Shown: piece by piece, positions 48,193 to 62,523 of the stretch
How the letters are laid out: every line of letters begins with the position of its first letter
How positions within the stretch are numbered: position 1 is the first letter of the stretch
Source of the DNA: Rhodococcus ruber NBRC 15591
Lineage (GTDB): Bacteria; Actinomycetota; Actinomycetes; Mycobacteriales; Mycobacteriaceae
Length of the DNA stretch: 64,000 nucleotides
Assembly: GCF_001894945.1 (NCBI RefSeq)
Contig: NZ_BCXE01000021.1
Coordinates: 248,001-312,000 of the forward strand
Direction: 5' to 3'
The notes under the pieces: model-generated
Told to the model about the DNA's origin: nothing
Database searches by the model: none
Seen by the model: the letters and a program-made list of their open reading frames with translations, nothing else
Made by a program: the position numbers and the translations under genes

Positions 48193-49383
48193 ATGACCGA
48201 AACCGCGAACATCGTCATCGTCGGCGGCGGACTCGAGGGCCTGGCTGCGGCCTGGTCCCTCGCCGAGCGCGGCGAAACGGATGTCCTCGTCCTGGAACGC
48301 GGGACGATGTGTTCCGGCATGACCGGCAAGTCCAGCGGCATCGTCCGCTGCCACTACGGCGTTCCGTCGCTGGCCGCGATGGCCTGGCACGGCGTGCAGG
48401 TGTTCTCCGAAGCCGAGGAGATCTTCGGGGCCGACATCGGCTTCCGGCAGACCGGATACGTCGTCGGCGTCGGGCCCCAGAACACCGCCCCGCTCGCCGC
48501 GAACGTCGAGATGCACCGGGCCCTCGGAGTGCCCGTCGAGACGATCGACGCCGGCGAGGTCCGCCGCCTGCTACCGGGGATAGCCCTCGATCCCTTCGCG
48601 GCCTTCGCGTACGAGCCCCTCGGCGGCCACGGCGACGCCTACATGACCGGAATGGCCTACGGCACCCGCGCCCGAGCCCTCGGCGTGCGAGTGCGCCAGG
48701 GCACCCCCGTCGCCTCCCTCCTGCAGCGCGAGGGCGGCGAGGTCTACGGGGTGCGGCTCGCGGACGGCTCCGAAATCCACGCGGGCACCGTCGTGCTCGC
48801 AACCGGCGTGTGGTCACCGGCACTCGGCGCGACCGCCGGCGTGGACCTCCCGATCCGGGCCCAGCGGGAACAACTCCTGCTCGTCGACCAGGGCGAACCC
48901 ACCCCCGACATCCCCACCTTCTCCGACCTGGTGAACCTCCAGTACATCCGCCGCGAGCCCAACGGAGAGCTGCTGGTGGGCAACAGCGATCACTCCGCGC
49001 CGGAGTGGGCGGACCCGGACGACTACGCCAATCGCGCCGACGACCCGTTCGTGGAAACCGCCGTCGCGAAGCTCGACCGGTTGCTGCCGGCCATGCCCGA
49101 TCCGCGGCTCGCCTCGTCGTACGCGGGATGCTACGACACCACACCCGACTACAACCCGATCATCGGCCCGTCCCCGGCGCCGGGACTGTTCCTGCTCGTG
49201 GGCTTCAGCGGCCACGGTTACAAGATCTCCCCTGCCGTGGGCCGGCTCGCCGCCGACCTCCTGCTCGACGGCATCAGCAGCGACCCCGCCGTGGACGGCA
49301 CCGACTTCCGGTACTCGCGCTTCGCCGAAGGCAAGCCCCTCGCCAGCCTGAACCCGTACGTCGGGGCCGGGGAGATGCGCTGA
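48193..49383 (+). CDS. FAD-dependent oxidoreductase, sarcosine-oxidase-beta/DAO type
   Basis: The 396-residue product begins MTETANIVIVGGGLEGLAAA, an FAD dinucleotide fold with GxGxxG at about 11-16. It contains GKSSGIVRCHYG and ends with PIIGPSPAPGLFLLVGFSGH then GYKISPAVGRLAADLL, the C-terminal FAD motif of DAO/SoxB proteins. Members oxidise N-methyl or other secondary amino acids (sarcosine, dimethylglycine, N-methyl amino acids) with release of formaldehyde or an imine. GTGAGGAAATGCG gives a ribosome site. The shared operator with the amine operons suggests it acts on an N-alkyl amino acid made there; this is inference. Confidence 0.88.
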   Translation: MTETANIVIVGGGLEGLAAAWSLAERGETDVLVLERGTMCSGMTGKSSGIVRCHYGVPSLAAMAWHGVQVFSEAEEIFGADIGFRQTGYVVGVGPQNTAPLAANVEMHRALGVPVETIDAGEVRRLLPGIALDPFAAFAYEPLGGHGDAYMTGMAYGTRARALGVRVRQGTPVASLLQREGGEVYGVRLADGSEIHAGTVVLATGVWSPALGATAGVDLPIRAQREQLLLVDQGEPTPDIPTFSDLVNLQYIRREPNGELLVGNSDHSAPEWADPDDYANRADDPFVETAVAKLDRLLPAMPDPRLASSYAGCYDTTPDYNPIIGPSPAPGLFLLVGFSGHGYKISPAVGRLAADLLLDGISSDPAVDGTDFRYSRFAEGKPLASLNPYVGAGEMR

Positions 49384-52151: not shown

Positions 52152-53318
52152 TCAGCGGCCGGCCATCGCCCGGAGCAGTGGGGCGGCGGGCAGCGACGCG
52201 AAGAGCGCCGCCTCGTCGCGCCACGACGACTCCTCGTCGAGGAACCGCAGGATCGGCTCCGCGGAGGACCGGTCGAACAGGCCCGCGAAGGCGCGCTCGA
52301 GCACGGCGGGCCGCTCGACGACGGCCCGCAACAGCCCCTGGTCGTACCGGGCGAACCGGGACGGGGCAGGGCGCACGTCGAAAGGATGCCCGTGCCGGGC
52401 GAGCGACCGCGCGAGGGCCTCACTGTCGCGCTGGATCCGCTGATAGGCATATCCGCTGCTGCCCTTGAGCATCCCGCCCGCGGCGCCGATCCGCACGATG
52501 TTGCCGCGGCGCCGCGCGGGCGGCTGTGAGGCCAACGGCATCCGCGCGGACTCGTCCGCCTCGACCACGTAGGCGTCCTCGTCGGCGCCGAGCACCGTCG
52601 CCAGGTACTCCCGGAGTGCCTCGTCGTGGACGGCGGTGCCGACGGGCCCGGCGTCGGGACGCGCGAAACACGTGTGCTCGACGAGGGCGCGACGGTCGTC
52701 GGTGGGCAGCACGTACACGAAGGACGCGGCCCGGCCCTGATCGGTGCGGAAGTCGAACAGGGTGGGGACGCCGGGATCGAACAGGGGTGCATCGGCGCGG
52801 ATCCGCCACCCCCGGAAGTCCAGCCACGCATCGGGGCCCGTCCCGTCGCGCGGGTCACCGCTGTCGGGGCCGCGGCCGTCGAAGACCCACTCGGGGTGCA
52901 GTTCCGTGCCGTCGGACAGGCCGACGCGCGGACGGGCCCCGTCGTGCACCCGCGTCACATGCCCGGTGCGGAACCCGATGTCGCCGACTGCATCCGTGAT
53001 CTCGTCGACCACCGGCACCAGATCGGCGCCGCGGACGACGCCGTACCGGTACCGGCCGAGACCGAGGGTGCGGGACCGTCCGCCGACGTGAACCCGGATC
53101 CGGGCGAACCGCGCGGAGACGGCGGCGTCGAGGAGTCCGGGCCGGCGGGACCAGAACGCCCATCCGACTTCTCGGATGTCGCGGGCGCCGTCGTCGACGA
53201 GCACCACCGGACCGGGTCGCGCCGGGGCGGTGGCGAGATGGGCCGCCAGCGACAGCCCGCTCAGGCCCGCCCCCAGGACGGCGATACCGCCGTCGACCGG
53301 TTCGTTCCAGGCTCGCAC
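52152..53318 (-). CDS. Lycopene cyclase (CrtY/CrtL type)
   Basis: GTG 53318 is chosen because GGGGAGGG lies seven bases upstream; an ATG at 53369 would add 17 residues. The 388-residue flavoprotein-fold enzyme has the dinucleotide motif IAVLGAGLSGLSLAAHLATA, GWAFWSRRPGLL, FDFRTDQGRAASFVYVLPTD, and GGMLKGSSGYAYQRIQRDSE, the cyclase signature. It would convert lycopene ends to beta-ionone rings. No other carotenoid gene is in the window. It starts 70 bases after the HODM-alpha gene stop, so read-through is possible. Confidence 0.88.
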   Translation of the reverse strand: MRAWNEPVDGGIAVLGAGLSGLSLAAHLATAPARPGPVVLVDDGARDIREVGWAFWSRRPGLLDAAVSARFARIRVHVGGRSRTLGLGRYRYGVVRGADLVPVVDEITDAVGDIGFRTGHVTRVHDGARPRVGLSDGTELHPEWVFDGRGPDSGDPRDGTGPDAWLDFRGWRIRADAPLFDPGVPTLFDFRTDQGRAASFVYVLPTDDRRALVEHTCFARPDAGPVGTAVHDEALREYLATVLGADEDAYVVEADESARMPLASQPPARRRGNIVRIGAAGGMLKGSSGYAYQRIQRDSEALARSLARHGHPFDVRPAPSRFARYDQGLLRAVVERPAVLERAFAGLFDRSSAEPILRFLDEESSWRDEAALFASLPAAPLLRAMAGR

Positions 53319-53388
53319 GCTCGACCCTCCCCTCGCCGGAGCCGTCTCCTTCGTCACCGTACCGGCCACCGGGCACGGTCGTGCGGTC

Positions 53389-54396
53389 CTACGCGGCGTA
53401 GGTCCGTGTCCGTTCCCGCAGCCAGGCCATCGCCGGCCTGCGGTAGGAGTCGATGCCCTTGTACGCGGCGATCTCGCCGGGCAGCTCCTCGACGATGTCG
53501 GCGAGCTGTTCGGCCCACACCGGGACCTGCGCGATCTCCTCGAGCGGCGCCATGTAGGTGCGGATGTTGAACACGAGCGTTCCTGTCATGGGCAGCCGGA
53601 TCAGGTGCTCGAGTTCGATGCGCAGCTGGATGCGGCCCCAGTCGCGGTCGGCGACGAGCCGTGGCATGTCGTCCATCCAGTCGGGCATCGTCTCGAGACT
53701 GGTGTCCCGCCGCCGCGAGCCGACCGCGGAGAAGGTCCAGTTCACCCGCCGGTACGGCCGCTCGGTCGTGAGCCGGCGCATGAACTGCTCGGCGCGGTCG
53801 GTCACCCCGTTCGAGGTCAGGCCGGGTACGGGACGGTGTATCTCGTGCAGGCTCATGCCGATGTCGAACTTGACGGACCAGTCGGCGGACGACGTGACCA
53901 GCGCCGCGTCGAACCACAGGTGCCCGTCGCGCTCGGTCACCAGCAGCACGTCGTCGGGCAGCTGGCATCCGATGAAGACCAGCGGGTGTTCCGGCAGGGT
54001 GGACAGATCGCCGAGCGCGAACCGCTGATCGATCCCGAGAAGGTCGTTGCGCCAGCGATACCCCTCGTTCTCGACGTCGAGATGCATGACGTCGGGGAAG
54101 GAGGCCGTCATGTCCCGCATGTAGTAGAGCATCAGATCCCAGCAGGCCGGCGTCATGTGGGGCAGCATCTGCACGCGGCCGGGGTCGGCCGCGAGGATCG
54201 CGCGACGCAACCGCATCATCTCGACGTACTCGGCGGGGCTCTTGCCGAGGTCGACGATGTGCTCGCCCCAGGCCCCGGCGGCGGTCTCGGTGCGACGCGG
54301 TGCCGGTTCGACATTGACGGCGTAGCGAAACACTCTGTCGCCCTGGGGGAAGGGCCACGGCAGGCAGGACAGGTCGCTGGCGACGGAGGCGGTCAC
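53389..54396 (-). CDS. Haem-dependent oxidative N-demethylase alpha-like protein (DUF3445), copy 1
   Basis: GTG 54396 with AAAGGAA about six bases upstream gives 335 residues. The sequence follows the DUF3445/HODM-alpha family: RVFRYAVNVEPAPRR, WGEHIVDLGKSPAEY, LPHMTPACWDLMLYYM, ADWSVKFDIGMSLHEIHRPV, YRRVNWTF, ELEHLIRLPMTGTLVFNIRT and APLEEIAQVPVWAEQLADIV. In Pseudomonas the family member binds haem and demethylates dimethylamine with NADPH-derived electrons. It is homologous along its full length to the gene at 54892 and equal in length, but clearly diverged. It is the last gene before the cyclase. Confidence 0.88.
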   Translation of the reverse strand: MTASVASDLSCLPWPFPQGDRVFRYAVNVEPAPRRTETAAGAWGEHIVDLGKSPAEYVEMMRLRRAILAADPGRVQMLPHMTPACWDLMLYYMRDMTASFPDVMHLDVENEGYRWRNDLLGIDQRFALGDLSTLPEHPLVFIGCQLPDDVLLVTERDGHLWFDAALVTSSADWSVKFDIGMSLHEIHRPVPGLTSNGVTDRAEQFMRRLTTERPYRRVNWTFSAVGSRRRDTSLETMPDWMDDMPRLVADRDWGRIQLRIELEHLIRLPMTGTLVFNIRTYMAPLEEIAQVPVWAEQLADIVEELPGEIAAYKGIDSYRRPAMAWLRERTRTYAA

Positions 54397-54418
54397 GACG
54401 GTTCCTTTCCGGTAGGTG

Positions 54419-54895
54419 TCAGGCCACAGCGCCGAGATAGGCACCGTGGTGCCCCGACAGGTGGGGGCGGATCTCGAGGTCCAGGCCGCACGAACCGCAG
54501 GCGACGACATCCCCGGGTTCGGCGTCGACGGCCCGGGTCGTGCCGCAGTGCGGGCAGAACAGCGGCACTCCGTCGACGGCGGTGACATAGGTGGTCGTCT
54601 CACACGGCAGCAGGCCGGCGGTGCGCGCCGCAGCCGTCGCTGCCATCGCTTCCCGCCGCGGTCCGGCGATCAGCACGCGGGTACCGGCGCGAGCCTCGCG
54701 CACGAGCCGCGCCACCTCCGCAGCGCTCGCGTCCGGAACCACGGTGGCGACGCGGCCGGCGGCGAGCGCCCGCGCCGCCCAGGCCGTCACCGCGGCCCGC
54801 GCGTCGGCGCAGCCACCGAGGCAGAACATGAGGTGGATGCGCCCACTCGGATCGAGCGGGGGCAGCGCACCGGTGAGGAAACCGGAGTTCTTCAC
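54419..54895 (-). CDS. DmmA-like N-demethylase subunit, copy 1
   Basis: GTG 54895 overlaps the stop of the upstream HODM-alpha copy 2 (GTGA). The 158-residue product has an N-terminal Rossmann-like part (RIHLMFCLGGCADARAAVTA; VLIAGPRREAMAATAAARTA) and a C-terminal four-cysteine metal knuckle, FCPHCG and ACGSCG, followed by HLSGHHGAYLGA. The HHGAYLG end is shared with the second copy at 56891. It matches the small DmmA-type subunit found with dimethylamine monooxygenase. Its exact role is not clear to me; electron transfer or assembly is possible. Confidence 0.82.
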   Translation of the reverse strand: MKNSGFLTGALPPLDPSGRIHLMFCLGGCADARAAVTAWAARALAAGRVATVVPDASAAEVARLVREARAGTRVLIAGPRREAMAATAAARTAGLLPCETTTYVTAVDGVPLFCPHCGTTRAVDAEPGDVVACGSCGLDLEIRPHLSGHHGAYLGAVA

Positions 54896-55899
54896 GGCCG
54901 CACACCCCCGAATTCGCGCAACCACTTCAGGCCCGGCTCGCGGGTGCGGGTGAGGCCCTTGTAGTCGGCCATGTCCTCGGGGAGTTCCTCGAGGACCCGG
55001 TAGAGCCGATCGGCCCATTCCGGCACCAGCGCGATCTCCTCGAACGGCAGCAGGTAGGTGCGGATGAGGAACATGATCGCGCCGGACGCGCCGAGCCGGA
55101 TCAGGTGCTGCACCTCGACCCGCAGGTGCAGGCGACGGCCGACGTCCTCGAGGGGCCCCTCGGCGAGCAGGCGCCGGTCGCGTCCCCACTCGGGATACGT
55201 CTCGGTGGCCGTGTCGAGCCGGCGGTCCACGGTGAGGGTCCAGTTGGTGCGCCGGTACCGCTGCCCGGGTTGCAGTCCCATGAGGAAGGACTGGGCGCGG
55301 GTGATCACTCCCTCGGCGTGGATGCGGGGCACGGGACCGTGGATCTGCAGGAAGCTCATCCCGACGTCGAAGCGCAGCGACCAGTCCGCCGCGAACGTCA
55401 CCAGGCCCGCGTCGCCCCACAGGGCACCGTCGCGCTGGTCGAGCAGCACGACGTCCTCCTGGATCTGCCGGCCGATGTACAGCAGGGGTGGCTCGGGCAG
55501 GGTGGCGGACTGCCCGTAGACGAACGCCTGCTCGAGGTCGAGGGCGAGGTTGCTCCACCGCCAGACGGTGCCGTCGCGGTCGAGCGCGAACGTCTGCGGG
55601 TACGCCTCGGCCAGCATCTTCATGAGGGTGAGCATCGCGTCCCACTGCGCGACCGCCATGTGCCCGAGCGTCTGGAAGCGGCTCGGGTCGGCGTCGAGCA
55701 CGCGCCGTCGCTCGGCGAGCTCGTCGAGGAGGAAGCCGTCCATGTCGACCGGGTGCTCGCCCCAGCCGCCGGCCGCCGTGTCCGCGCGGGTCCCGGCCGG
55801 CTCGACGTTGGTGCTGTACCGGTAGGCGTCCCGCGGGAAGGGGAACGGGAACCGCGCGACGCGTTCCGGGAGCGCCTCGAATTCGGTTGCGGCAGTCAC
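54892..55899 (-). CDS. Haem-dependent oxidative N-demethylase alpha-like protein (DUF3445), copy 2
   Basis: GTG 55899 overlaps the reductase stop by four bases (GTGA). The 335-residue product parallels copy 1: PFPRDAYRYSTNVEPAGTRA, GWGEHPVDMDGFLLDELAER, LGHMAVAQWDAMLTLMKMLA, ADWSLRFDVGMSFLQIHGPV, YRRTNWTLTV, EVQHLIRLGASGAIMFLIRT, LPFEEIALVPEWADRLYRVL. Because it directly follows the reductase it is probably the principal catalytic subunit. Both copies keep the conserved framework, so neither looks degraded. Substrate range cannot be read from sequence. Confidence 0.88.
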   Translation of the reverse strand: MTAATEFEALPERVARFPFPFPRDAYRYSTNVEPAGTRADTAAGGWGEHPVDMDGFLLDELAERRRVLDADPSRFQTLGHMAVAQWDAMLTLMKMLAEAYPQTFALDRDGTVWRWSNLALDLEQAFVYGQSATLPEPPLLYIGRQIQEDVVLLDQRDGALWGDAGLVTFAADWSLRFDVGMSFLQIHGPVPRIHAEGVITRAQSFLMGLQPGQRYRRTNWTLTVDRRLDTATETYPEWGRDRRLLAEGPLEDVGRRLHLRVEVQHLIRLGASGAIMFLIRTYLLPFEEIALVPEWADRLYRVLEELPEDMADYKGLTRTREPGLKWLREFGGVRP

Positions 55900-56891
55900 A
55901 GGTCCAGCTCCAATCGCTCGCCGCCGGCGCGGGAGACGCACGGCATCATGCAGTCGCCGGCGAGTTTCTCCGCGTCGGTCAGGTACAGGTCGCGATGCTC
56001 GATCGCGCCGCCGGTCACCGGGATCCGGCATTCGCCGCACACTCCCTGCCGGCACAGGTTCGGCACCGCGACCCCGTTCGTGTCGAGCGCGTCGAGCAGG
56101 CTCACGCCGGAGTTCACGACGATGTCGGCCCCGGTGCGGCGCAGATGTGCGGTGAACGGGGAGCCGGGGTCGAGGTCGCCGACACCGAAGTGCTCGTAGT
56201 GGATGCGGGCGTCCGGCCACCCCGCGCCACGGGCGCGGGCGGTGAGTTCGTCGATGAGACCGGTGGGCCCGCACACGTACAGGTGGGTGCCGAGCGGCTG
56301 ATCGAGCAGGGCCGGGCCGAGTGCGGCCCAGAACTGCCCGGGTGTGTGATAGGTGTGCAGGCGGTCGCCGCACAGTTCGCGCAGTTCGCCGAGGTGCGGG
56401 CCGTCGCCCTCGCGGAACGTGTAGTGGACCTCGAAGGAGCGGCCCCACTGAGCGGCGGCGCGGGCGTGCGAGAGGATGGGTGTGACGCCGATGCCGCCGG
56501 CCACGAGCAGGTGGTGACGCGCGGTGAGGACCGGCGCGAAGGCACTTCGGGGCCTGCTGACCTCCACGACGTCGCCGACCTCGAGACCGTGGACCCAGCG
56601 GGAGCCGCCCCGGCCGGTCTCGTCGAGCCGCACGGAGATCGAGTAGCTGTGCGGTTCGAGCTCCGGACCGGTCAGGGAGTAGGAGTTGCGGCGGGGCCGG
56701 CCGTCGTCGCGGGGGCCGCAGGAGAGCACGACGTGGCTGCCCGGGGTGAACGACGGCAGTGGCGCACCGGTGGGGTCGACGAACCGCACGTGCCGCACGC
56801 CGGTGGCGACGGTGGTCACCTCGGCGACGGCGAGGGTCAGGGTCGCGTCGTTGCGCCGGACGGCCGCTCCGGAGTCGGATACGAGAGTCAT
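55896..56891 (-). CDS. PDR/VanB-family oxidoreductase (flavin, NAD(P)H, [2Fe-2S])
   Basis: ATG 56891 shares one base with the stop of the upstream DmmA-like gene (TGATG); 331 residues. An N-terminal ferredoxin-reductase-like flavin domain (RPRRNSYSLTGPELEPHSYS) precedes the NAD(P) domain (HHLLVAGGIGVTPILSHARA; THLYVCGPTGLIDELTARAR) and a C-terminal plant-type [2Fe-2S] ferredoxin domain with cysteines in CRQGVCGECRIPV and a fourth in GDCMMPCVSRA. It should pass electrons from NAD(P)H to the haem subunit, the part played by the reductase of dimethylamine monooxygenase. One reductase serves two alpha copies here. Confidence 0.92.
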   Translation of the reverse strand: MTLVSDSGAAVRRNDATLTLAVAEVTTVATGVRHVRFVDPTGAPLPSFTPGSHVVLSCGPRDDGRPRRNSYSLTGPELEPHSYSISVRLDETGRGGSRWVHGLEVGDVVEVSRPRSAFAPVLTARHHLLVAGGIGVTPILSHARAAAQWGRSFEVHYTFREGDGPHLGELRELCGDRLHTYHTPGQFWAALGPALLDQPLGTHLYVCGPTGLIDELTARARGAGWPDARIHYEHFGVGDLDPGSPFTAHLRRTGADIVVNSGVSLLDALDTNGVAVPNLCRQGVCGECRIPVTGGAIEHRDLYLTDAEKLAGDCMMPCVSRAGGERLELDL

Positions 56892-57403
56892 CAGCATTCC
56901 TCCGCGTCGAGCTGGTAGCCGAGATATGCGCCGTGGTGGCGCGAAACGTGGTGGTAGACGACGAGGTTCGCTGCGCATCCCGGGCACGTGCTCGTCTGCC
57001 CGATCGCGGCGGCGGTGTCATGGGTGTGCGCGCAGTGCGCGCAGTACACCGTGCGGGTGTCCGTGGTCAGCACCTCGGGCAGGATCTCGTCGTCGAGTGC
57101 CCCCGCGGCGACGGCCACGGCCCGGGCGGCGAGGACGGCGGCCTCGTCGCCCACCAGGACGAGCCGCCAGCCGACGCGGGCCGCGGCGAGCTGGCGTTGC
57201 AGGACCTCCGCGGCCGCGTCGCCCCAGGTGGCGGGCGCCCGTAGCCAGCTCACCCGCCGGCCTTCGAAAGAGGTCACGAGGCGGCGGGCGTGGTCGCCGG
57301 CGGCGGCGCCGAACGACAGGACGGTGACGGTCCTGCCGCCGTCGGCGACGATGCGTTCCTCGTCCCAGCGCGGGACGCTGGTCGTCTCCGTACAGACGCT
57401 CAT
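56891..57403 (-). CDS. DmmA-like N-demethylase subunit, copy 2
   Basis: ATG 57403 (MSVCTETTSVPRWDEERIVA) gives 170 residues. The layout matches copy 1: an alpha/beta part (WRLVLVGDEAAVLAARAVAV), a C-terminal knuckle YCAHCAHTH and TCPGCAANL, then HHVSRHHGAYLGYQLDAEEC. It is the gene before the reductase and 10 bases after the cupin stop. Sequence outside the knuckle and HHGAYLG is strongly diverged from copy 1, which suggests each DmmA-like protein is matched to its own alpha subunit. Confidence 0.82.
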   Translation of the reverse strand: MSVCTETTSVPRWDEERIVADGGRTVTVLSFGAAAGDHARRLVTSFEGRRVSWLRAPATWGDAAAEVLQRQLAAARVGWRLVLVGDEAAVLAARAVAVAAGALDDEILPEVLTTDTRTVYCAHCAHTHDTAAAIGQTSTCPGCAANLVVYHHVSRHHGAYLGYQLDAEEC

Positions 57404-57413
57404 GTCCGGGTCC

Positions 57414-57791
57414 TCACGGCGCGAACGTGCGCTGGCCGACGTAGAACGCCAGGGCACCGTCGGGAGTGGTGAAGCGGATGCGTGAGCCCTTGGGGAAGAA
57501 GATCGCGTCCTTGGCGCGGGCGATCTCGACCTGGCCGGTGTCGAGGTTCTCGAGCCGGAACTCGCCTTCGAGGACGACCTTCATCTCGTCGTACTCGTAC
57601 AGGTAGTCCAGGGGGGCGTCGGTGTGCTCGAGCTTGAAGTAGCCGGCCGCCATCTCCGACCCCTCGGGATTGGGGTAGACGTCGTCGATGAAGCCCGCGG
57701 TGCCCGGAAATTCGTCGGTGGACATCTGGGGCAGGCTCTTCCAGAAGTCGGCGGTGACGCGGAATGCGGGGGCGGTGGTGGTCTCTGCCAT
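57414..57791 (-). CDS. EutQ-like cupin protein
   Basis: ATG 57791 with CAGGAGCCTCC upstream; 125 residues (MAETTTAPAFRVTADFWKSL). It is a single cupin barrel (YLYEYDEMKVVLEGEFRLEN; DAIFFPKGSRIRFTTPDGAL), similar to the cupin of EutQ. The metal His residues of typical cupins are replaced by Tyr/Glu in the first motif. It is first in the demethylase operon and is expressed from the divergent promoter region. Binding or sensing of an amine, or a lyase role, are both possible. Confidence 0.82.
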   Translation of the reverse strand: MAETTTAPAFRVTADFWKSLPQMSTDEFPGTAGFIDDVYPNPEGSEMAAGYFKLEHTDAPLDYLYEYDEMKVVLEGEFRLENLDTGQVEIARAKDAIFFPKGSRIRFTTPDGALAFYVGQRTFAP

Positions 57792-58024: not shown

Positions 58025-58063
58025 TGTTTCATTTCATTCGACAGCGATTCACCTTATGAAACT
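58025..58063 (+). promoter_or_regulatory. Operator upstream of the glnT-like gene
   Basis: TGTTTC at 58025-58030, CGATTC at 58045-58050 (four of six match, 20 bases on) and GAAACT at 58058-58063 (13 bases on) repeat the three-part arrangement at 48126-48164. The first half-site overlaps TATGTT (58024-58029), a possible -10, so a repressor bound here would block transcription. Confidence 0.6.
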
Positions 58064-58088
58064 TCGCAGCCGGACCCCAGGAGTACCC

Positions 58089-59450
58089 ATGACGCTCGAA
58101 GCCACCGACCTCCCCGTGATGCGTCTGCCCTCCCCGGACGCCCCCGCCGCCGAGCTCGCCGCTCTCGCCCGCGCCACCGACACCCGCTTCATCCTCGCGG
58201 TGTTCACCAATCTCGCCGGAAAGCCCTGCGCCAAGCTCGTCCCGGTCGAGGCGGTCGACGAGCTCCAGTCCGACGGGGTCGGTTTCGCGGGCTACGCGGC
58301 CGGAGCGATGGGTCAGGTCCCGAAGGATCCCGATCTCGTCGCACTCCCGGATCCCACCTCCTTCACGCCGATCCCGTTCGTGCGTCCGGGGCTCGCGCTG
58401 GTGCACTGCGATCCCCACGTCGAGGGCAAGCCCTGGCCCTACGCCCCGCGGGTGATCCTGAGGCAGGTCCTCGGCAAGGCCGCCGAGCGCGGGCTGTCCG
58501 TCAAGGTCGGCGCCGAGATCGAGTACTTCCTCGTCCAGCGGGACGAGGACGGGACGCTGCGCACCGCCGACGCGCTCGACACCTCCCGGCAGCCCTGCTA
58601 CGACGCCCGGGACGTCACCCGCATGTACGAACACCTGACCTCGATCTCCGCGGCGATGAACTCCCTCGGCTGGGGCAACTACGCCAACGACCACGAGGAC
58701 GGCAACGGACAGTTCGAGCAGAACTTCCACTACGCCGACGCGATGACCACCGCCGACCGGGTGGTCACGCTGCGCTACCTGATCTCGGTGCTCGCCGAGC
58801 AACGGGGCATGACCGCGACGTTCATGCCCAAGCCGTTCGCCGACCGCACCGGCTCGGGCATGCACATGCATCTGTCGCTGTGGCGGGAGGACGGGGCCGC
58901 CTTCCCCGATGCCGGCGATCCCCGCGGACTCGGACTGTCCGAGACCGCCTACGCGTTCATCGCCGGCATCCTCGACCATGCCTGCGCCCTGCAGGGCGTG
59001 ATCGCCCCGACCGTCAACTCCTACAAGCGGACCGGTGCCACCGCGACCAGCTCCGGCGCGACGTGGTCGCCGCGGCACGCCACCTACGGCGGCAACGACC
59101 GCACCCACTATCTGCGCGTTCCGGACGGCAACCGCGTCGAGCTGCGCGGCGGGGACGGCTCGGCCAACCCCTACCTCGCTGCCGCGGCCGCCGTCGCGGC
59201 GGGCCTCGACGGCATCGACCGCAAACTCGATCCCGGCGTACCCGGAGGCACCCCGAATCCGGAGACACTGCCGATGACCCTGCTGCACGCGATGGACGCC
59301 CTCACCGCCGACCCCGTGGTGACCGGCGCCCTCGACGCCGCCGGCCCGGGTGTCGCCGAGTACTTCGCCGCGCTCAAGCGCGAGGAGTTCTTCCACTGGC
59401 ACAACACCGTGACCGCGTGGGAGATCGACAGCTACCTGACCGCCTTCTGA
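58089..59450 (+). CDS. glnT: Type III glutamine synthetase-like enzyme (GlnT / gamma-glutamylmethylamide synthetase type)
   Basis: ATG 58089 has AGGAG five bases upstream and is preferred over ATG 58056, which lies in the operator. The 453-residue product has glutamine synthetase motifs: KVGAEIEYFLVQRDEDGTLR, DGNGQFEQNFHYADAMTTAD, GSGMHMHLSLWREDG and the NRVELRGGDGSANPYLAAAA region. GlnT proteins next to glxBCD act as gamma-glutamyl-amide synthetases (methylamine plus glutamate plus ATP) in methylamine users, or as ammonia-specific enzymes in other species. The context favours amine capture. Confidence 0.9.
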   Translation: MTLEATDLPVMRLPSPDAPAAELAALARATDTRFILAVFTNLAGKPCAKLVPVEAVDELQSDGVGFAGYAAGAMGQVPKDPDLVALPDPTSFTPIPFVRPGLALVHCDPHVEGKPWPYAPRVILRQVLGKAAERGLSVKVGAEIEYFLVQRDEDGTLRTADALDTSRQPCYDARDVTRMYEHLTSISAAMNSLGWGNYANDHEDGNGQFEQNFHYADAMTTADRVVTLRYLISVLAEQRGMTATFMPKPFADRTGSGMHMHLSLWREDGAAFPDAGDPRGLGLSETAYAFIAGILDHACALQGVIAPTVNSYKRTGATATSSGATWSPRHATYGGNDRTHYLRVPDGNRVELRGGDGSANPYLAAAAAVAAGLDGIDRKLDPGVPGGTPNPETLPMTLLHAMDALTADPVVTGALDAAGPGVAEYFAALKREEFFHWHNTVTAWEIDSYLTAF

Positions 59451-59496: not shown

Positions 59497-60384
59497 ATGT
59501 GCGGAATCGTCGGGCTTCACCTGCGTGACGCCGCCCTCGCCCCCCGGCTGGGCAGCCTGCTGACCGGCATGCTCGGCCAGATGGTCGACCGGGGACCGGA
59601 TTCGGCCGGGGTCGCCCTCTACGGCGACCCCACCTTCTCCCCCGCCGGCCACGCGTCGGTGTCCCTGCTCGGCGCCGCCCCGGACCTCGCCGCCACCGTC
59701 GGTGCCGCACTCGGGGTGAGCGTGACCGGAATCGACCTGGCGCCCACCACGGTGCTGCACGCGCCGGTCCCGGCGCAGCTGCTCGCCGACACTCTCCGCG
59801 CTGTCGATCCCGGCGCCACGCTCATCGGCTTCGGCGACGACGTGACCGTCCTCAAGGGCATGGGCGACCCGGTGGCGCTGGCCGAGCGCTTCGGGATCCC
59901 CGCCGCCTCCGGATGGCAGGGCGTCGGCCACACCCGCATGGCCACCGAATCGGCCGTCACCGCCGCGGGCTCGCACCCGTTCGCCGTCGGCCCGGACCAG
60001 TGCCTGGTGCACAACGGCTCGTTCTCCAACCACCTGTCGGTCAAGCGGGAACTCGAGGCCGAGGGGGTGGCGTTCGACAGCGCGAACGACACCGAGGTCG
60101 GGGCGCGATTCGTCGCCAAGCACCTCGCCGAGGGCGCCGACCTCGAGAAGGCCCTGCGTCTGCTCGGAGAACGCTTCGACGGGTTCTACACCCTGCTCGT
60201 GTCGACGTCCGACTCCTTCGCCGTCGTGCGCGACCCGATCGCGTGCAAACCCGCGATCGTCGCCGAGACCGACGCGTACGTCGCGATGGCCTCCGAGTTC
60301 CGGGCCCTCGCCGGCCTGCCCGGCATCGCGGACGCCCACATCTTCGAACCCGAGCCGGAGCGGGTCTACGTATGGCACCGCTGA
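59497..60384 (+). CDS. glxB: GlxB: class II glutamine amidotransferase (N-methylglutamate synthase subunit A type)
   Basis: The 295-residue product starts MCGIVGLHLRDAALAPRLGS, with Cys2 as the Ntn nucleophile, and has GHTRMATESAVTAAGSHPFA and LVHNGSFSNHLSVKRELEAE. This is the amidotransferase domain of glutamate synthase as a separate protein, the family of MgsA/GlxB. In N-methylglutamate synthase it hydrolyses gamma-glutamylmethylamide to pass methylamine to the synthase core. AAAGGAGAG lies before the ATG. It is 46 bases after glnT. Confidence 0.92.
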   Translation: MCGIVGLHLRDAALAPRLGSLLTGMLGQMVDRGPDSAGVALYGDPTFSPAGHASVSLLGAAPDLAATVGAALGVSVTGIDLAPTTVLHAPVPAQLLADTLRAVDPGATLIGFGDDVTVLKGMGDPVALAERFGIPAASGWQGVGHTRMATESAVTAAGSHPFAVGPDQCLVHNGSFSNHLSVKRELEAEGVAFDSANDTEVGARFVAKHLAEGADLEKALRLLGERFDGFYTLLVSTSDSFAVVRDPIACKPAIVAETDAYVAMASEFRALAGLPGIADAHIFEPEPERVYVWHR

Positions 60385-61172
60385 CCAGCACCGACGCTTC
60401 CCCCATCTCTTCGACGCCGGAGACGACCATGCCTGCCGAGACCCTGCCTTCCGAGACCCTGCCCACCGACACGCTTCCCGCCGACATGCTTCCCGCCGGC
60501 ACGACGTACGACCTCGACGTCACCACCACGCGCGAACTCAACGCCGCACTGCAGGCCACCGAGGCACCCGCGTCGGTGACCGTCACCAATCCCCAGGGCA
60601 AGCACGCACTCGCGTGCGGGCTCGACCGGCCGATCGACGTGCGCATCGACGGCCACGTCGGCTACTACGCCGCCGGAATGAACAAGCACGCGACCGTCAC
60701 CGTCGCGGGCAACGCCGGGGTCGGGGTCGCCGAGAACATGATGTCGGGCACCGTGCGCGTCACCGGGGACGCCTCCCAGTCCGCCGGCGCCACGGCCCAC
60801 GGCGGGCTGCTGGTGATCGAGGGCAACGCCGCCGCCCGCTGCGGCATCTCCATGAAGGGCGTCGACATCGTCGTCGGCGGCAGCATCGGCCACATGAGCG
60901 CCTTCATGGGGCAGGCCGGGCGGCTCGTCGTCCTCGGCGACGCCGGCGAGGCCCTCGGAGATTCGTTGTACGAGACGCGCATCTACGTCCGCGGCACCGT
61001 CGCCTCGCTCGGCGCGGACTGCGTCAAGAAGGAGATGCGGCCCGAGCACCTCGAGGAACTGCGCGAACTCCTCCGGGCCGCCGGCTTCGACGCCGACCCC
61101 GCCGAGTTCACCCGCTACGGCTCCGCCCGCGGGCTCTACCACTTCCACGTCGACAACGCCTCGGCGTACTGA
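60372..61172 (+). CDS. glxC: GlxC: glutamate synthase GXGXG-domain protein (MgsB type)
   Basis: ATG 60372 overlaps the glxB end; an in-frame ATG at 60429 (MPAETLPSETLPTDTLPADM) is also possible. The first ~45 residues are a low-complexity Thr/Pro/Leu repeat (ETLPSETLPTDTLPADMLPA). The rest is a right-handed beta-helix of GXGXG repeats (VAGNAGVGVAENMMSGTVRV; GVDIVVGGSIGHMSAFMGQA), the C-terminal structural domain of glutamate synthase as a separate subunit. It precedes glxD by 25 bases. Confidence 0.9.
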   Translation: MAPLTSTDASPISSTPETTMPAETLPSETLPTDTLPADMLPAGTTYDLDVTTTRELNAALQATEAPASVTVTNPQGKHALACGLDRPIDVRIDGHVGYYAAGMNKHATVTVAGNAGVGVAENMMSGTVRVTGDASQSAGATAHGGLLVIEGNAAARCGISMKGVDIVVGGSIGHMSAFMGQAGRLVVLGDAGEALGDSLYETRIYVRGTVASLGADCVKKEMRPEHLEELRELLRAAGFDADPAEFTRYGSARGLYHFHVDNASAY

Positions 61173-61197: not shown

Positions 61198-62523
61198 ATG
61201 ACCTTCCAGCCCGGACTTCGTGAGTCGGCCACCTTCGACCGCAACGTCATCCACGAGATCCAGCGTGCCGCCGACACCGGCATCTACGATATCCGCGGAT
61301 GGGGCGCCAAGCGCAAGCTCCCGCACTTCGACGACCTGCTGTTCCTCGGCGCGTCGATGTCGCGATACCCGCTCGAGGGTTACCGCGAGAAGTGCGAGAC
61401 CGACGTGGTCCTCGGCGACCGGCACGCGAAGTACCCGCTGCACCTCGACATCCCGGTCACCATCGCCGGCATGAGCTTCGGGGCGCTGTCCGGGCGGGCG
61501 AAGGAGGCGCTCGGGCGCGGCGCGAGCGAGGTCGGCACCTCCACCACCACCGGCGACGGCGGCATGACGCCGGAGGAACGCGGCCAGTCCAAGCACCTCG
61601 TCTACCAGTACCTGCCGTCGCGCTACGGCATGAACCCCGACGACCTGCGCAAGGCCGACGCCATCGAGGTCGTCCTCGGCCAAGGGGCCAAGCCCGGGGG
61701 CGGCGGCATGCTGCTCGGGCAGAAGATCACCGAGCGCGTCGCCGGGATGCGCACCCTGCCGGTCGGTATCGATCAGCGCAGCGCCTGCCGGCACCCCGAC
61801 TGGACCGGCCCGGACGACCTCGCGATCAAGATCATCGAGCTGCGCGAGATCACCGGCTGGGAGAAGCCGGTCTATGTGAAGGTGGGCGCAACCCGCACCT
61901 ACTACGACGTCAAGCTCGCCGTGAAGGCCGGCGCCGACGTCGTCGTCGTCGACGGCATGCAGGGCGGCACGGCGGCCACGCAGGACGTGTTCATCGAACA
62001 CGTGGGGATTCCGACGCTCGCCGCGATCCCGCAGGCCGTGCAGGCGCTGCAGGAGCTGGGGATGCACCGCACCCCGGGCGGCGTGCAGCTCGTCGTCTCC
62101 GGCGGCATCCGCTCGGGTGCCGACGTCGCCAAGGCCATGGCCCTCGGCGCAGACGCCGTCGCGATCGGTACCGCAGCGTTGATCGCGTTGGGCGACAACG
62201 ACCCCCGATACCAGGCGGAGTACGAGAAGCTCGGCTCGGCCGCCGGGTTCTACGACGACTTCCAGGACGGCAAGGATCCCGCCGGCATCACCACGCAGGA
62301 CCCGGACCTGCAGGCCCGGTTCGATCCGGTCGAGGGTGGCCGCCGCCTCGCGAACTACCTGCGGGTGCTCACCATGGAGGCCCAGACCATCGCTCGCGCC
62401 TGCGGCAAGTCCCACCTGCGCAACCTCGAGCCGCAGGACCTCGTGGCCCTGACCCTCGAGTCGGCCGCCATGGCGCGCGTACCGCTGGCCGGCACCGACT
62501 GGATCCCCGGCCGAGGCTTCTGA
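61198..62523 (+). CDS. glxD: GlxD: glutamate synthase FMN-domain protein (MgsC type)
   Basis: A 441-residue protein with the FMN/iron-sulfur barrel of glutamate synthase: IAGMSFGALSGRAKEALGRG, TTTGDGGMTPEERGQSKHLV, GQGAKPGGGGMLLGQKITER, VVVDGMQGGTAATQDVFIEH, SGGIRSGADVAKAMALGADA. In N-methylglutamate synthase this subunit condenses methylamine with 2-oxoglutarate and reduces the imine. CCAGGAGAACCCC precedes the ATG. A long palindrome follows the stop. Confidence 0.93.
   Translation: MTFQPGLRESATFDRNVIHEIQRAADTGIYDIRGWGAKRKLPHFDDLLFLGASMSRYPLEGYREKCETDVVLGDRHAKYPLHLDIPVTIAGMSFGALSGRAKEALGRGASEVGTSTTTGDGGMTPEERGQSKHLVYQYLPSRYGMNPDDLRKADAIEVVLGQGAKPGGGGMLLGQKITERVAGMRTLPVGIDQRSACRHPDWTGPDDLAIKIIELREITGWEKPVYVKVGATRTYYDVKLAVKAGADVVVVDGMQGGTAATQDVFIEHVGIPTLAAIPQAVQALQELGMHRTPGGVQLVVSGGIRSGADVAKAMALGADAVAIGTAALIALGDNDPRYQAEYEKLGSAAGFYDDFQDGKDPAGITTQDPDLQARFDPVEGGRRLANYLRVLTMEAQTIARACGKSHLRNLEPQDLVALTLESAAMARVPLAGTDWIPGRGF

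Follow-up and report, generated by a model that had tools for sequence, protein, structure and literature searches.

Why should one operon hold two catalytic subunits of the same demethylase family, each with its own partner protein, and a single reductase? The question is raised by a 64,000-nucleotide stretch of the Rhodococcus ruber NBRC 15591 genome (contig NZ_BCXE01000021.1, positions 248,001 to 312,000; hereafter the window), on the minus strand of which five genes run from 57403 to 53389 in the order dmmA1-reductase-alpha1-dmmA2-alpha2. The overlaps between successive genes are 1, 4, and 4 bases, except that alpha2 is preceded by a gap of 22 bases; this agrees with an earlier note made from the sequence alone, which gave overlaps of 1-4 bases except before the last gene. 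That note had also recognized the genes and the single reductase correctly, but had missed the EutQ-like cupin gene at the head of the operon and the gmaS/mgsABC candidates next to it. The answer to which the evidence points is a twin operon of the HODM/DmmABC type, in which one reductase probably feeds two alphas with different substrates. Probably a second reductase was once present and has been lost, which is invisible from the window alone.

Both alphas (alpha1, 54892..55899; alpha2, 53389..54396; each 335 residues from a GTG start) are haem-PAS catalytic subunits matching PF11927 with 207 and 198 bits, respectively (cut-off 25), and they were the only two genes found when the genome was searched with this model. 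Despite their equal length they are only 47% identical, which bears out the divergence noted earlier. Identity to the solved alpha of Pseudomonas HODM (5LTE) is 53% for alpha1 and 40% for alpha2 (phmmer E 2e-104 and 4e-70), and alpha2 is 93% identical to its counterpart in R. aetherivorans (L054). The sole conserved histidine common to both alpha sets and 5LTE, H187 (H194 of 5LTE), is situated at the end of helix 183-187 and is the putative haem ligand (the two sets exclude 12 of 101 rows, 11 divergent alphas and 5LTE). Both alphas keep this histidine. A copy devoid of haem ligands, which the note had named as refuting a two-substrate or heteromer model, was not seen at the sequence level. The DmmA-family subunits dmmA1 (56891..57403, 170 residues; NF041259 E 1e-34) and dmmA2 (54419..54895, GTG start, 158 residues) reach 118.5 and 90.9 bits against NF041259 (cut-off 60), and both match PF22289 as well. 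The reductase (55896..56891, 331 residues) exceeds the cut-offs of PF00111 (Fer2) and PF22290; general NAD-binding models stay just below theirs, and the flavin part is predicted on the basis of sub-cut-off matches to flavin reductase models, the whole being a putative NAD(P)-, 2Fe-2S-, and flavin-dependent protein. If it started at an alternative in-frame ATG (56897), its overlap with dmmA1 would become 7 bases.

PF11927 is present in 40 of 394 genomes of the class including the one studied here (of these, three further ones have a pair of full-length alphas close together), in 13 of 18 genomes of the genus (six with two alphas), and in 90 of 401 genomes of the family draw. Gene order, read from stretches no longer than 20 kb and from 56 named loci of alpha2, follows four arrangements. 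The first consists of two complete dmmA-reductase-alpha triplets, usually side by side, so that alpha1 and alpha2 each have their own dmmA and reductase (Gordonia, Nocardioides, Millisia, Prauserella, Cryobacterium, Corynebacterium, Blastococcus, and others). The second is the shared-reductase form of the window, encountered in six genomes of the same genus and two of the genus group holding R. globerulus. The third is a single alpha1 triplet. In the fourth, reductase-dmmA2-alpha2 stands without intact alpha1; six such loci, one of which retains a remnant of alpha1, belong to the R. opacus/jostii/wratislaviensis group. The note's premise that the family has single copies of each subunit fails in actinobacteria: alpha1 lies in the same stretch at 49 of the 56 named alpha2 loci. 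For the remaining seven, five genomes hold alpha1 elsewhere, and none was found in R. wratislaviensis, where alpha2 is the only alpha found, or in one metagenome-assembled genome (MAG; taken to be G636, 74% complete). No intact alpha2-type gene occurs in 44 of the 90 PF11927 genomes of the family draw, a count of alpha1-only genomes that takes in G487, whose alpha2 is broken, and five genomes whose alphas are divergent or fragmentary (G514, G593, G666, G663, and G552); alpha2 alone occurs in two of the 90, one being an incomplete MAG. Among the two-alpha Gordonia genomes, 29 of 31 were typed from fetched sequence, and G773 and G776 by match pattern only.

These distributions bear on the suggestion that the two alphas, together with their DmmA proteins, assemble into one obligate heteromer on one reductase. 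A single operon, equal alpha lengths, one reductase, and the rarity of alpha2 in genomes without alpha1 would all suit such an enzyme, which is nevertheless highly improbable: the 44 genomes mentioned do without alpha2, alpha2-dmmA2 has a locus of its own in R. opacus and R. jostii, R. wratislaviensis yielded no alpha other than alpha2, the two triplets of Cryobacterium are divergently oriented, and elsewhere each alpha has its own reductase. Of the two possibilities that the note had left side by side, two amine substrates or a heteromer, the former is at present favored as a hypothesis.

Three individual loci are of note. On a plasmid of Candidatus Mycobacterium methanotrophicum (L167), the reductase of the alpha2 locus is in two pieces, and the same contig carries alpha1 at a distance of ∼25 kb. 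In L072 (8891-9703), a broken alpha2 remnant follows directly behind an intact alpha1, and no dmmA2 was found there. The alpha2-like unit of L080 branches deeply and is ordered reductase-dmmA-alpha; its genome (G414) also has a twin cluster, and L081 holds a fourth alpha of that genome.

How one reductase came to stand with two alphas is suggested by phylogeny. Careful trees were calculated from chosen subsets of 89 alphas and 59 reductases (the long-branched L096_red1 was omitted from the latter), and quick trees without near-duplicate Gordonia loci. The careful alpha tree unites the alpha2 proteins in one clade (44 rows, 100/99). Of the proposal that the copies might form two clades that always co-occur, the separate grouping held, whereas constant co-occurrence did not, alpha1 often being found without alpha2. 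The 14 Rhodococcus alpha2 without their own reductase likewise form one clade (99/93), placed beside the reductase-keeping alpha2 of Blastococcus and Modestobacter (16 rows, 99/96). For that reason, the simplest account of the tree is a single loss of the alpha2-specific reductase on the Rhodococcus stem, and the 22-base gap ahead of alpha2 (54397..54418, minus strand, with the ribosome-binding-like GGAAAGGA), whose place is occupied by the second reductase in relatives, is most simply read as its former site. The dmmA tree mirrors the alpha tree, with dmmA2 as its own clade (27 rows, Shimodaira–Hasegawa-like approximate likelihood ratio test [SH-aLRT] 97). Reductases adjoining alpha2 also form one clade whatever their position (19 rows, 94/93), outside of which fall both the reductases shared in Rhodococcus and those from the solo alpha2 loci; the latter group with reductases of single alpha1 triplets (99/97). 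Forcing the outside reductases into the clade was rejected by the approximately unbiased (AU) test (p 0.0001 and 0.0004). Because both kinds lie outside, Rhodococcus alpha2 is, as judged from these trees, today associated with a reductase other than its original type. It has to be set against this that the support for the alpha2-reductase clade is just under the strict mark, and that the groups entered in the AU test were named after the tree had been seen.

We propose that the operon began as two complete neighboring enzymes, each composed of DmmA, reductase, and haem-PAS alpha, and that the Rhodococcus lineage then lost the second reductase. Because the operon keeps only one of the two reductases of its relatives, both enzymes probably draw on it; electrons from NAD(P)H would pass via this remaining protein to both alphas (the count of reductases is that of the cluster), and each DmmA, as a partner specific to one alpha, would enable the common reductase to serve that alpha. 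For DmmA2, such a role as alpha-specific adaptor is probable because dmmA2 was met only together with alpha2 and its predicted fold combines a reductase-like NAD domain with a four-cysteine ribbon. That alpha2 and dmmA2 have instead been decaying since the second reductase disappeared, and are functionless here, is quite improbable; the loss itself and the broken alpha2 remnant of G487 would agree with decay, but alpha2 shows a dN/dS of 0.11-0.26 against four relatives, its frame is open in 14 Rhodococcus loci, and the 4-base overlap of dmmA2 with alpha1 is retained in the window. Both alphas are under purifying selection, which, together with the retained histidine, argues that alpha2 survived the loss of its reductase.

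What, then, would two alphas do? For alpha1, we assume conversion of dimethylamine (DMA) to methylamine. It is quite likely that alpha2 acts on some substrate other than the main one of alpha1. The alternative that both share one substrate and differ in affinity or regulation (dosage, or high- and low-affinity isoenzymes) is unlikely; although fold and conserved residues are alike and both are encoded in one operon, the two groups are old and separately conserved, with nearly fixed differences including Q155E and Q264E (alpha1 numbering). Context makes trimethylamine (TMA) the leading guess for the substrate of alpha2, at somewhat less than even confidence; its product DMA would pass to alpha1 in series, and it would be expected of an alpha2 whose product feeds alpha1 that alpha1-only genomes are common and alpha2-only genomes rare. 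In the R. ruber genome, neither a TMA monooxygenase (best flavin-containing monooxygenase, 119 bits vs a cut-off of 675; no match in the family survey either) nor a trimethylamine N-oxide (TMAO) demethylase fusion was found. A TMA monooxygenase was found in 1 of 46 genomes with alpha2 vs 14 of the 44 with alpha1 only (p 1e-4), in the genus in 1 of 6 with alpha2 vs 9 of 12 without it (p 0.04), and in Gordonia in 0 of 31 vs 11 of 28 (p 8e-5), in each case with lineage uncontrolled. The survey scored the top four candidates per genome and counted partial or broken ones (G402 and G624) as present; it and the alpha typing were treated as the same 401-genome draw, sizes and handles being identical.

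Several observations weigh against TMA and against a strict series. The exclusion statistics ignore lineage, G398 holds both alpha2 and a TMA monooxygenase, three alpha1-only genomes of the genus likewise have no TMA monooxygenase, and PF11927 as a whole is unlinked to this enzyme (p 0.74). A TMAO demethylase adjoins just one of seven inspected TMA-monooxygenase loci (L220, g2, probably Mycobacterium), and the monooxygenase gene may therefore serve something else in the others. R. wratislaviensis, with alpha2 but no alpha1 found, is not predicted by a strict series, and the search of the R. ruber genome for enzymes of the TMA step covered TMA monooxygenase and TMAO demethylase. The complete scheme, in which alpha2 and DmmA2 constitute a haem-PAS TMA N-demethylase within an actinobacterial, TMAO-free route from TMA via DMA to methylamine, run by privately adapted haem enzymes on one reductase, is thus put forward tentatively.

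The HODM of Pseudomonas mendocina (5LTE/5LTH/5LTI), reportedly the first enzyme with a PAS fold, is said to have been described with a folate cofactor. It resembles the enzymes described here in alpha fold and conserved residues; here, in contrast, there are two alphas, one reductase, and no folate-type gene in the cluster. The absence of a GcvT-like gene, already noticed earlier, was confirmed: only two genes of the genome match PF01571, those for GcvT and for a YgfZ-like protein, both on other contigs, and when 166 loci were searched by phmmer with these two as queries, a credible match near the cluster appeared only in L043. DmmABC of Ruegeria was active in E. coli without DmmD, whereas Ruegeria itself needs dmmD for growth if its nitrogen is supplied as TMA, TMAO, or DMA (PMC5520151).

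At the other end of the operon, the EutQ-like cupin (57414..57791, minus strand, 125 residues; PF06249 E 1.5e-13) is the only PF06249 match of the genome and the first gene. It heads most of the twin clusters read, beside dmmA, whereas none was found at eight single-triplet loci of group g2 (L035-L041 and L133). In L220, the cupin gene adjoins a TMA monooxygenase and a TMAO demethylase-type fusion. EutQ proteins have already been proposed to function in methylated amine oxidation, and in four of five strains the gene numbers place the 2015 candidate Tmd of Gram-positive methylotrophs, a ferredoxin/flavodoxin NAD(P) protein, two genes away from a EutQ gene (PMC5023230, Table 2). This distance fits the order cupin-dmmA-reductase, and Tmd may be the HODM reductase.

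The gmaS/mgsABC candidates adjoin the cluster divergently, on the plus strand, and were typed from their domains and synteny rather than with equivalog models bearing those names: gmaS (58056..59450; glutamine synthetase type III-like, TIGR03105 and PF00120), which often adjoins the cluster in relatives, mgsA (59497..60384; glutamine amidotransferase domain, PF13522), mgsB (60486..61172, start uncertain; profile match in L051 and open reading frame end), and mgsC (61198..62523; glutamate synthase domain, PF01645 E 1e-87). A sarcosine-oxidase-beta-like FAD enzyme (48193..49383, plus strand; TIGR01373 139.5 bits, under its cut-off), the counterpart of which lies directly behind mgsC in many twin clusters, is a candidate N-methylglutamate dehydrogenase. 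Judging by this neighborhood, methylamine would enter the adjoining GmaS/MgsABC/N-methylglutamate pathway. An ammonium transporter gene (PF00909), possibly for methylammonium uptake, adjoins gmaS in all four twin clusters tested (L161:10987-12381, L144:13661-15106, L143:3244-4587, and L184:10915-12567). A lycopene cyclase gene (52152-53369) begins 19 bases past alpha2 on the same strand, an arrangement otherwise seen only in R. aetherivorans among the loci compared.

In Ruegeria pomeroyi and Methylocella, DmmABC(D) converts DMA to methylamine, and gmaS/mgs genes belong to the same pathway (PMC5520151), as they accompany the dmm genes here; those systems have one gene per subunit, whereas the window has twin dmmA-alpha pairs, a shared reductase, a EutQ-like cupin, and no dmmD. 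The methylotrophy clusters of Arthrobacter and Mycobacterium share with the window the EutQ-like cupin and the Gma/MgsABC neighborhood near methylated amine genes, but in the portion of that account consulted no DMA monooxygenase is recognized and DMA oxidation is ascribed to Tmo (PMC5023230). For actinobacteria, dmmABC has been reported in Nesterenkonia, the consulted part of the report making no mention of twin alphas or a shared reductase (PMC8875376). Neither feature was found in the titles and abstracts returned by literature searches on these enzymes, most subscription papers lying outside this coverage.

The HODM family thus has a second, old, and separately conserved actinobacterial branch, for which no earlier description was found in the literature searched. 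This alpha2 branch is a candidate for the TMA step in organisms in which neither TMA monooxygenase nor TMAO demethylase was found. The window also represents a natural experiment, two enzymes having probably come to depend on one reductase, and this makes the role of DmmA testable.
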